A stretch of DNA of 64,000 nucleotides from an uncultured Bacteroidales bacterium (GTDB lineage Bacteria; Bacteroidota; Bacteroidia; Bacteroidales; Muribaculaceae), in assembly GCA_947175245.1 (NCBI GenBank), contig CAMWLW010000002.1:1-64000 (forward strand). The letters run 5' to 3'. Shown one piece after another: positions 1 through 56,732 of this stretch. Positions within the stretch are counted from its first letter, which is position 1. Every line of letters starts with the position of its first letter. The notes below the pieces were generated by a model. The model had not been told where the DNA came from. It made no database searches and saw nothing but the letters and a program-made list of their open reading frames with translations. A program made the translations under genes and the position numbers.

Positions 1-95
1 AGCAGGAATATAGACAGTTACAACGATTTCAGCCTGCAAATTGACCTATACGCCTCAAATTTTTGGTTAACTTTGCATTTGGATTACCTCGTGGT

Positions 96-32115: not shown

Positions 32116-32406
32116 CTAGTCTTTTTCTACGCTTTCGTTTTGCTTTCGGAAGTATTCCAACATTTCGTTTTCTAGTTCCTCTTTCTTTTTCTTCTTTAAA
32201 CCACGGTCAGCGAGGATAAGCCATCCCAAAGCACCTATTAAACCTGCGTATAGCGAAAAAGAATAAATATCTTCGCTACACTGATGAACGAAGTCAATCG
32301 GATTTACACTCAAAATAAACGGAAGGATTATGGCTAAAAGCCAAACAAGGCAAAAACCAAATAAAAAGCCGATAACGATTGCTTTAAGTATTTGAGATAG
32401 ATTCAT
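32116..32406 (-). CDS. Small two-TM protein with charged C-terminal tail
   Basis: IVIGFLFGFCLVWLLAIILPFIL and FSLYAGLIGALGWLILA; DRGLKKKKKEELENEML; ATGA overlap with upstream gene. Confidence 0.7.
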   Translation of the reverse strand: MNLSQILKAIVIGFLFGFCLVWLLAIILPFILSVNPIDFVHQCSEDIYSFSLYAGLIGALGWLILADRGLKKKKKEELENEMLEYFRKQNESVEKD

Positions 32407-33608
32407 AATATTTCAAGTTTTCTTTTTAGTTGATTGATTATCTTTTGGTGGTTTTCCGTTCCGAGATTCTTCTCGGTCAGATGCTGGTTTAGAGGATTTC
32501 TGCCGATGATTATTCGTCCTTCTTCTTCAAGGCGAGTCCATGTCGGACCAAGCAACGCCTGCCATTTTTTGACCGCACGTGGTACGACAAAGATTGCGTT
32601 CTTGTAATCCGCTATATATCTTATCATCTTTTTAGCAAACATCTGAGAAGGCAGAATACAACCTTCCGGAAGATATTTTGCCTTTATTGATGCGTATGGG
32701 ATATGCTGGATTAGAGCCACGTTGGAGAATATTTGCTCCGAAGTCAAACCATCTTTCTTCCATTTTGAAAGGATGTCATACCAATACCAATCGCCAAGCA
32801 TATTAAAAGCGTCTTGATAGTTCGGGTGTCGGTTGGAAGGATTATCGACTTCTGGCATAAAATTCTTAACCCTCAATCTAAGGTTATCCCTCATAAAGTT
32901 CATTACCCCTTCTGCCAATTGCGGGTATCTCTGAAGTATTTTTGCGAAATATTCATTGACCCTCGTAATATGACCTGCGTTAAGGCTTAGGATAATAACC
33001 TTTGCTGACAAAGGATTACCTTGGAACGGATATGGAAGAGTATTCAGTATGAAGCGAGTGTCATCATTTGCTGATGAATTGAATTCATGGATGAATTTTT
33101 CGTCCCCAGGATAGATATACTCACGATTTTCGTTGAACAAAGCCTCATTCCCGTAGCACTCGTCCGCAACTGCATTCCAGTGATTGGCTTTCAATATATC
33201 CAAATCCGTAATTCTTGTGTCCTTATCAATGAGGTAATGTTCTGATCCGTCATGAGGAAGCACATATTGATACGCGAGAAGGTCAATCAAATCATTGACC
33301 ATTTCTTTCAAGGTGACATTTTCATATCGGTCGGTGATAGCGTCTGATGACCGTCCCGAAAGTTCTGACATAAGTGCTCCTATAGAATATTTTATCTCAA
33401 ATTCATGTATATAAGGATGTTTTCTAAGAATTTCTTTAACGTCTTGGAAAATATCGTAACCCATGCTGGTTACATATCCTATATCAAGCAGTTTTTGTCT
33501 TACTCCTATTGCGTTCCATTCATGAGCACCAGAGTCAAAATAGGTACGGATTGGCCGCGGTAATATTAGTTTTCCTCCAAGATAGTAATACGATGGAAAG
33601 TTTGTCAT
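32403..33608 (-). CDS. Uncharacterised ~400-aa protein, tentatively uracil-DNA-glycosylase-fold-like
   Basis: ORF open to GTG 33647, ATG (MTNFPSYYYLGGKL) at 33608 preferred; GNPLSAKVIILSLNAGH is the only UDG-like hint. Confidence 0.55.
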   Translation of the reverse strand: MTNFPSYYYLGGKLILPRPIRTYFDSGAHEWNAIGVRQKLLDIGYVTSMGYDIFQDVKEILRKHPYIHEFEIKYSIGALMSELSGRSSDAITDRYENVTLKEMVNDLIDLLAYQYVLPHDGSEHYLIDKDTRITDLDILKANHWNAVADECYGNEALFNENREYIYPGDEKFIHEFNSSANDDTRFILNTLPYPFQGNPLSAKVIILSLNAGHITRVNEYFAKILQRYPQLAEGVMNFMRDNLRLRVKNFMPEVDNPSNRHPNYQDAFNMLGDWYWYDILSKWKKDGLTSEQIFSNVALIQHIPYASIKAKYLPEGCILPSQMFAKKMIRYIADYKNAIFVVPRAVKKWQALLGPTWTRLEEEGRIIIGRNPLNQHLTEKNLGTENHQKIINQLKRKLEIL

Positions 33609-33658
33609 TGGCGAGTTTAGAGTTCCTTGTGTCAGCAACCGAAACACAGCAGATTACA

Positions 33659-33862
33659 CATAGAAAATGGGCTGCTCCTATGCTACATTGAAGGCATCGC
33701 CAAACGCCCGAACTAATGCACAGAGAGCAGCCCATGATATATGAGCTGTTCAACTGCACCTCATTAGTTCTGATATATTGGCGATTTATCAATGTAGAGG
33801 CACTTCCTTTATTTTGTCACTCTTGACGGTACAAAATTACGCAATTTTCTGAAAATAACAAG
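33659..33862 (-). ncRNA. Structured RNA element A (own promoter TTG-N19-TAATTTTG), 5' of the 400-aa protein gene
   Basis: Stems 33683-91/33789-97, 33696-703/33778-85, 33710-18/33762-70, 5' hairpin 33816-27, 3' hairpin 33659-82; 20-nt core identical to the 55.95 kb element. Confidence 0.65.
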
Positions 33863-55081: not shown

Positions 55082-55268
55082 GTATTGATACTCAGTAGGG
55101 ATGCGATTAATCGCGTCCGCCGCCGATAGGCCGATTGCCACTGAGTGCCGGAGGCACGTGATTGCGGTTAACCCCTGGTGGAGAGACCCGTAGGGACTCG
55201 GAACCTGGGGCAGCGACATCCACCCAATCCCGTGAGCCTCGAAGAGGCGATGTCGTGAGTATCAATAC
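55082..55268. mobile_element. MITE/REP-like repetitive element with 13-bp perfect terminal inverted repeats
   Basis: GTATTGATACTCA (55082-55094) / TGAGTATCAATAC (55256-55268); internal hairpins GTGCCGGAGGCAC and CCTCGAAGAGG. Confidence 0.6.
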
Positions 55269-55322: not shown

Positions 55323-55364
55323 TATATTGATATTCAGTAAGGATGCGATTAATCGCGTCCGCCG
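55323..55364. repeat. Second copy of the 42-bp segment ATATTGATATTCAGTAAGGATGCGATTAATCGCGTCCGCCG
   Basis: 3 mismatches vs 55081-55122; preceded by GGGCGTGAAAAATCACGCCC palindrome. Confidence 0.85.
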
Positions 55365-55405
55365 GGAAGTTGGTTTTGATAGTTAACCCAAATAAGGGAA
55401 AAAGG

Positions 55406-55647
55406 TTATTTGCCCCTCTTGCAATGACAACCGTTCACGTGGTCGTCGATGAAGCCGGCGGCTTGCAGAAAGGCGTAGCAGATTGTGGTGCCGAAAAATT
55501 TGAATCCGCGGCGTTTCATGTCTTTGCTTATGGCGTCAGAAATTCAAACAGTGTCTTGTCATCGGTTACCGGGCGACCCCATTCCTCGTCGTGATACTTC
55601 ACATACAGCGGGTCGTCGCCACACCATCGGCATCGCTTTGTTTCCAT
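55406..55647 (-). pseudogene. Internally deleted DNA-3-methyladenine glycosylase I (tag) remnant
   Basis: N-terminal METKRCRWCGDDPLYVKYHDEEWGRPVTDDKTLFEF joined to C-terminal DAISKDMKRRGFKFFGTTICYAFLQAAGFIDDHVNGCHCKRGK in another frame. Confidence 0.85.
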
Positions 55648-55716
55648 CATTTCAGTTGTTTATGTTTAATGATGGTGTAAAGTTACGACAAAAAGTTGAA
55701 AAATATGGTGTATTAA

Positions 55717-55748
55717 TTTTGTAACCGATACAGTTTTTACTACTTTTG
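55717..55748 (+). promoter_or_regulatory. Bacteroidales promoter TTTTG-N19-TACTTTTG
   Basis: ttttg 55717-55721, tacttttg 55741-55748. Confidence 0.8.
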
Positions 55749-55751
55749 TGG

Positions 55752-56003
55752 CCATGCGGAGGAGTCCGCGACATATAATTTTTATAAGCGTTTCTTGCTT
55801 AATCCTTTAAAGAAAAATCGCCAATTTTTTAACGGAAGGATTAGAGCTACCTGGAATCGCTCATGCTTGTATATTCCAGCCCGTGCTATGCCCGGGCGTG
55901 TAATGATATAGGCGTAGCGTGGGGGTGGTCTGTTTATTTCCGTTAGGGCGTTTGGCGATGCCTTCTTTAAGATAAGCAGAACATTGTCCTGCGCTTTATT
56001 TTT
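55752..56003 (+). ncRNA. Structured small RNA element B (long multi-stem hairpin with terminator-like 3' end)
   Basis: GCGGA-GGAG-TCCGC 5' hairpin; stems 55807-14/55963-70, 55817-24/55952-59, 55831-37/55938-44; 3' hairpin + TTTATTTTTTAT; no convincing CDS. Confidence 0.7.
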
Positions 56004-56054
56004 TATAATTGCTCGTGACGGGGACATATTCGGGCATAAAACTCTACACATTAT

Positions 56055-56732
56055 ATGAGATTGAGACATCTTTTTGTGTTTGTGATGGTTGTCTTTGCCT
56101 GCTACGCGATGTCAGCAAAAAAAGTAACCGTTCATGTTGTTCCCGAAAACGCCAAAATCATTGTCGATGGGGCCGAAGTAGGCAGTGGCTCATACACACT
56201 GAAGTTTGAGCGTGGCGTTGATTTCTATCTGATTAAGCTCGAGGCTCCGGGCTACATTTCGCGTAACGTTAAGTTACTCAAAACCAATCCTAAAAATACC
56301 GTGTTGTACACTCTCGAAGAGGATGAGGCTATGGCAAATTCTTCGGGCGGTGATGATGGTGCCGGCGCCGAGGCAAACAAATGGTTTGACGTGACGTGCC
56401 GCAAGGGCCTGTCGGAAGATGTTATCTGGAAACGTCTTATTTCGGTGGCTATAAACTATTTTGATAACATCCAGGTGCGCGACAAGGCTGCCGGTTGGAT
56501 AAAAACCGAGTGGAAGCCTACAATTTTTAAGAATCAGGTTGTACGCACCCAGATGGAAGTGCGCATGTCGTTCACCGATGAAGATGTGGTGTCTTATCGT
56601 GTCAGAATTGCGACCGAGATTAAAGACAAGAACTGTCGCGGCAACCAGTGCTACCACCGTTATGACAGGGTGCTGAACAAGTTTGCGCCGCTTATTCAGG
56701 AATTGCAGACAACCGTCGGCGGCGGTGAATAA
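56055..56732 (+). CDS. Secreted PEGA-domain-like protein
   Basis: Signal peptide; VTVHVVPENAKIIVDGAEVGSGSYTLKFERG. Confidence 0.7.
   Translation: MRLRHLFVFVMVVFACYAMSAKKVTVHVVPENAKIIVDGAEVGSGSYTLKFERGVDFYLIKLEAPGYISRNVKLLKTNPKNTVLYTLEEDEAMANSSGGDDGAGAEANKWFDVTCRKGLSEDVIWKRLISVAINYFDNIQVRDKAAGWIKTEWKPTIFKNQVVRTQMEVRMSFTDEDVVSYRVRIATEIKDKNCRGNQCYHRYDRVLNKFAPLIQELQTTVGGGE

Follow-up and report, generated by a model that had tools for sequence, protein, structure and literature searches.

A predicted family of attenuator-like leader RNAs in Bacteroidota

The locus considered here raises a simple question: does the structured RNA element at 55717-56007 of the window (the whole stretch of 64,000 nucleotides that was analysed) act on its own, or does it serve the gene that starts shortly after it? 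Our best reading is that the element represents a new family of transcription-attenuator leader RNAs. With termination control inferred from comparative sequence analysis, we give this reading a probability of about 0.65. The window element would then serve the PEGA-domain gene at 56055 as its 5′ leader.

All parts of the element lie on the forward strand. A Bacteroidetes-type promoter occupies 55717..55748 (TTTTG at 55717-55721 and TACTTTTG, of the form TAnnTTTG, at 55741-55748), and a 5′ hairpin, GCGGA-GGAG-TCCGC, can be read near the transcription start (55756..55769). The nested helices are S1 (TTAAAGAA, 55807..55814, with TTCTTTAA, 55963-55970; covariation z 8-21), S2 (ATCGCCAA, 55817..55824, with TTGGCGAT, 55952-55959) and S3 (AACGGAA, 55831..55837, with TTCCGTT, 55938-55944, also covarying). 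S2 forms a pseudoknot with a small hairpin, GGY.RCC (GGC-gtTTGGCGAT-GCC, 55947..55962), the loop of which carries S2′; in 15 of the 56 sequences aligned, a U-A pair of this hairpin is replaced by C-G. Five further strands, a to e, have a choice of partners or lie next to the gene. Strand a (55786..55805) can pair locally with b (GCTTAATCC / GGATTAGAGC) or, in a long subclass, with d, as judged from a duplex test and covariation. Strand b (55836..55865) may form this local hairpin or pair with c (GCGTGG...CTGTTTAT, 55917..55937) in an antiterminator-like apical stem, and c in turn has b or d as its partner, the same columns covarying with both. Strand d (...TGTCCTGCGC) together with the T-run spans 55970..56006, the T-run itself (TTTATTTTTTAT) being at 55995-56006; once c pairs with d, this region is a candidate intrinsic terminator. 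Strand e forms a hairpin (TGCTCG..CGGGCA, 56010..56036) whose loop, GGACA (56022-56026), matches TGTCC (55985-55989) of strand d. The start codon at 56055 is located 48 nt past the T-run, a spacing conserved among homologues, and opens a gene (56055..56732) for an exported PEGA-domain protein of 225 aa (Pfam PF08308).

The promoter, 5′ hairpin, nested stems and T-run had all been described in an earlier note on this DNA, and the sequence has each of them where that note placed it. Its view of the element as a structured RNA is borne out as well. The fold energy of the 256-nt RNA is -93.7 kcal/mol versus -68.0 +/- 4.4 kcal/mol for dinucleotide shuffles (z -5.9, 0/200), and a check for compensatory changes revealed strong covariation of the stems across homologues. 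The antisense ORF at 55782-56069, called spurious there, is present, and nothing supports its status as a gene. What the note had missed are the start codon at 56055, the alternative pairings and a second family copy of a short divergent type at 33655..33806 on the reverse strand (70.7 bits, E 2e-11 with covariance model R2), behind which lies a 401-aa ORF without a Pfam match (32403..33608, reverse strand). Upstream of the element, the reverse strand at 55420-55661 holds a remnant of a 3-methyladenine DNA glycosylase gene, in which positions 1-31 and 137-176 of the Pfam Adenine_glyco model occur in different frames and the middle is missing. A direct repeat, TATTGATAyTCAGTArGGATGCGATTAATCGCGTCCGCCG, is present in intergenic DNA farther upstream (~55083-55130 and 55325-55370).

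The family is widely distributed. DNA searches identified diverged copies on other contigs of the same genome (69-70% identity over the full length, 76% for a partial match) as well as matches in 88 of 198 genomes of the host's taxonomic family. Covariance model R1 detected the element in 88 of 295 genomes of the order; it was based on the first RNAalifold structure, which was poor because it mixed competing helices, and was used for searching only. Model R2, derived from 56 short-class members with the rod structure described below, yielded nine matches in the window's own genome, the second window copy included. It found the element in 75 of 198 genomes sampled from the order, several of them with at least 14 candidates, and in 35 of 299 genomes across the phylum, other orders and classes among them. 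All eight named Bacteroidota genomes tested were positive, with 1-13 matches each. Culturable carriers are Bacteroides timonensis, Coprobacter secundus, Xylanibacter rodentium and Chryseobacterium gregarium, along with Parabacteroides sp. An277 (13 matches) and Butyricimonas synergistica (10 matches). A Kiritimatiellae MAG with three matches and copies in MAGs labelled Kiritimatiellota or Lentisphaerota (L166, L183, L191, L207, L237, L247) suggest that the family reaches gut PVC bacteria. Several of the copies in MAGs so labelled have the 5′ hairpin GTACGCAAtcTTGCGTA in common. A chance motif was considered and rejected: the 17-mer alone occurs outside Bacteroidota, but the RNA was found in 0 of 14 such loci, and none of seven genomes of other phyla with a chance 17-mer has the element. 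Among IMG/VR contigs containing the 18-mer (L036-L058), the full element is present in 17 of 23, where it is probably host flank or prophage.

None of this corresponds to a catalogued RNA. The suggestion that Bacteroidales-1 might cover the element did not survive: cmscan against Rfam 15 returned no relevant match for the window, for the region 55600-56100 at E<=10 or for 40 homologous loci, and the Bacteroidales-1 covariance model (RF01693) matched neither the element nor the homologous loci tested. Flavo-1 (RF01705) had no match at E<=1 in 20 loci, several of which come from other orders and classes of Bacteroidota; the one hit of that scan is a tRNA. A tRNA/tmRNA search found none, and BLAST gave no match of the window element to phages or of a short-class relative (L103) to plasmids. 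Like Bacteroidales-1, Flavo-1 and other Bacteroidetes Rfam motifs (Weinberg 2010, PMC2864571), the copies are conserved structured RNAs of the same phylum; unlike these motifs, no tested copy is matched by any Rfam 15 model. In a literature search restricted to main texts outside subscription, no paper found prints the core sequence in such a context. The available passages on the BrickBuilt MITEs of Porphyromonas (PMC4596501) describe no such element, nor do the main-text passages available from transcriptome papers on B. thetaiotaomicron and F. psychrophilum or from Fremin and Bhatt 2021. On comparative grounds, we conclude that this is a large, unnamed family of predicted leader RNAs of Bacteroidota, uncatalogued in Rfam.

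The position of the copies points to a role in cis. Their common layout comprises a TAnnTTTG promoter, often a variable 5′ hairpin, a core of 165-220 nt, a T-run and a start codon ~40-50 nt farther on. Among homologues, TAnnTTTG peaks 55-100 nt upstream of the core (31-36% per 27-nt bin versus ~1% background), and T-runs of at least five peak 40-64 nt after the conserved GGYGTTTGGCGATRCC motif (p+40..64; 70% of homologues versus ~4% background). For 132 homologues with enough flank, we asked whether an ATG ORF of at least 60 aa starts 75-135 nt after the GGYGTTTGGCGATRCC motif; it does in 103, compared with 9 of 132 in the mirrored and 31 of 132 in the shifted control. Since the ORF start is fixed just past the T-run and leaves no room for a separate promoter, the element would be the 5′ leader of the next gene. 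Both leader placement and a shared transcript we infer from these position statistics, by which the element is very probably a cis-acting leader. Thus, the earlier description of a structured RNA that has a promoter of its own and ends like a terminator stands, and the label ‘stand-alone’ does not. No clear ORF follows in about 10% of copies, and among its products the leader may yield a short terminated RNA.

How could such a leader work? The aligned sequences argue for two folds. The rod structure, consisting of S1, S2, S3, GGY.RCC and the apical b.c stem, has 86.8% of cells paired in the 56 short-class members, 223 double-change cells versus 91 in shuffles, and a covariation score of 0.333 versus 0.06-0.13 for slid partners. 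The alternative, a.b plus c.d, has 78.4% of cells paired in the same members, with 83 double-change cells versus 30 in shuffles and a score of 0.276 versus 0.07-0.13. Because both folds use strands b and c, they cannot coexist on one molecule. The duplex test, in which the energy of strands from the same RNA is compared, per sequence, with that of strands from different RNAs, supports a.b, b.c and c.d, each at p ~1e-6 or less in both size classes, while the controls a.c and b.d are null (rank 0.49-0.50). For a.d the test gives p 2.8e-6 in the long class and is weak in the short class. Columns 100 and 106 have two covarying partners each, single c columns covarying with one b column and one d column. 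In a wider set of 88 matches, which were fitted to the model and hence biased toward the rod, rod pairs are formed in 89.6%. S2 changes as a whole helix in more distant members (e.g. ACTGGTAA/ATACCAGT and CGTAGGAA/TTCCTACG), and several S2 types occur within a single genome; the invariance of S2 in the first set is partly an artefact, as its sequence had served as a search query. The exchangeability of S2 argues against a fixed ligand pocket at this helix. Taken as comparative evidence, these data support the predicted pseudoknot of the core and a series of helices, a.b, b.c and c.d, each of which excludes the next.

We propose that transcription starts near 55750 and that the nascent RNA could adopt either fold. 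In the rod fold, b would pair with c and the pseudoknotted S1-S2-S3 core would close, keeping c from the terminator. In the alternative fold, a.b and c.d would form, the latter directly before the U-run, so that an intrinsic terminator would end the transcript before the gene. The balance of the two folds would set polymerase read-through into the downstream gene, and in read-through RNA the d.e pairing beside the start codon may tune translation. On this proposal, c.d would terminate in cells, the ratio would be regulated, and some signal (a small molecule, a protein or another factor) would favour one fold. An attenuator of the intrinsic-terminator type has a stem directly before a T-run upstream of a gene and an alternative, mutually exclusive antiterminator helix. 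The family has the former, with a spacing that points to one transcript for stem and gene, and on a comparative basis it has the latter.

The predicted energies bear on which fold would prevail. The c.d hairpin of the right half, before the T-run, averages -33 to -35 kcal/mol. With kissing (loop-loop) pairs uncounted, the rod is predicted to be more stable than the two separate hairpins by ~10 kcal/mol in the short class and 21 kcal/mol in the long class. These energies do not imply that termination is the default; it would need the help of kinetics or of a factor, and without either the terminator fold may win rarely. We also considered a trp-type leader peptide, which would call for a short ORF across strand a, and rejected it, as upstream short ATG ORFs are depleted (14 observed versus 21-31 in shuffled sequences). 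Conserved architecture, mutually exclusive helices, leader position and the absence of a leader peptide are computed results.

A cis-acting leader might instead affect chiefly how the mRNA is translated or how stable it is, with the rod and d.e shielding the mRNA or gating ribosomes and the T-run being an unstructured linker. Such a role would fit the rod as the predicted stable fold, the variable 5′ hairpin that starts many transcripts (in long-class relatives its position is constant and its sequence variable) and the d.e pairing conserved just before the ATG, for which a Watson-Crick match of at least 6 nt is found in 47% of own versus 14% of swapped pairs in the long class (p 1.8e-8). However, a T-run at p+40..64 in 70% of homologues, preceded immediately by a strong c.d stem that covaries, speaks against a mere linker, and we regard this alternative as improbable. 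Less probable still is an independent small RNA of ~250 nt acting in trans, for which the T-run would be the normal end and the next gene coincidental or reached by leak-through only. It would account for the element's own promoter, strong fold, T-run at a fixed place and multiple copies per genome, but neither for ORF starts at a fixed spacing without space for a separate promoter nor for the attenuator-like competition of a.b, b.c and c.d.

Relationships among copies provide a further view of the family. Leaders cluster by host lineage and not by gene: only 27 of 269 element pairs with at least 78% identity have related downstream proteins, and we dropped the idea of strict leader-gene coevolution, given that leaders group by host lineage. 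Near-identical leaders (90-97%) stand before unrelated genes, which indicates that leaders do not simply follow the function of their genes; most copies within a genome are ~70% identical. In one locus (L190), the end of the upstream gene, the promoter and the element have been copied before an unrelated gene, and the match stops at p+48. In another pair (L041/L047), homology stops within a few bases of the T-run. Two related MAGs (L261, position 2052, and L262, position 13361, on the element strand) are 94% identical over 2 kb, sharing the upstream DNA and the element, and diverge completely at p+52, the 3′ end of the element. The L190 and L261/L262 breakpoints may represent recombination between copies, module transfer or MAG misassembly. 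A mobile or recombining DNA element (a MITE, attC-like site or promoter cassette), whose palindromes would matter as DNA with expression effects secondary, would suit the multiple copies, the near-identical ones before unrelated genes and these abrupt ends, but is very improbable, given that most copies in a genome differ by ~30%, that covariation includes G-U pairs and whole-helix S2 compensation, that promoter and T-run are placed for one RNA strand, and that divergence past the T-run is expected anyway since the gene differs.

The genes behind the leaders are mostly accessory: BspA-type LRR adhesins, PEGA proteins, lipoproteins (many of them short), small HTH proteins and restriction-modification genes. 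Among 116 downstream proteins, Pfam assigned LRR_5 to 17 and PEGA to 4, other domains, restriction and methylase domains included, being single cases of many; adhesin-like LRR models match 13. LRR_5 looks enriched because the window's own genome, the only background used, holds roughly 16 LRR_5 ORFs. Relatives of the window PEGA protein in other genera, at 66% (protein search), 60%, 55% and 33% identity, all have a leader; PEGA-type matches at 26-32% identity in four genomes are without one. A small HTH-like family (~70 aa) is found behind eight leaders in different genera (L012, L015, L035, L109, L143, L170, L177, L196) and could be a regulator of the system. The LRR_5, PEGA and HTH families each occur behind both leader size classes. 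As the downstream genes share no obvious pathway, they suggest no signal.

Attenuation as proposed here resembles known systems in part. As in trp-type attenuators (1:2, 2:3, 3:4), four strands form competing helices a.b, b.c and c.d, with a T-run between c.d and the gene; unlike them, this family has no leader peptide, has an S1-S2-S3 pseudoknotted core and a fifth strand e, and precedes unrelated genes. With transcription-terminating riboswitches it would share a large pseudoknotted leader domain coupled to a choice between terminator and antiterminator, but it lacks a ligand candidate and a coherent downstream pathway, and its most conserved-looking helix, S2, is exchangeable whole. The families of mobile attenuators in Naville and Gautheret 2010 (PMC2965389) are recent copies from insertion sequences or prophages, with similar terminators before non-homologous genes. 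The latter property is common to both, whereas the present family is strongly diverged, phylum-wide and kept by compensatory change, and the loci read contain no transposase.

A bolder version of the attenuator reading, which we hold to be unlikely, is a phylum-wide riboregulator that would work by strand exchange over a-e around a pseudoknot whose S2 code is swapped whole between copies, and that would spread as a combined promoter and leader to new accessory, surface and defence genes, placing them under one shared cellular signal. Should regulated attenuation by the leader be borne out, a single RNA control, invisible to current annotation because no Rfam model covers the family, would govern dozens of surface, lipoprotein and restriction genes in gut Bacteroidota that are poorly understood. 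With no signal known for it, a family of this abundance would form a large orphan class of attenuators or riboswitch-like RNAs. Its presence in culturable strains makes it testable at once, and it offers a clear case in which comparative data back two incompatible folds of one RNA.
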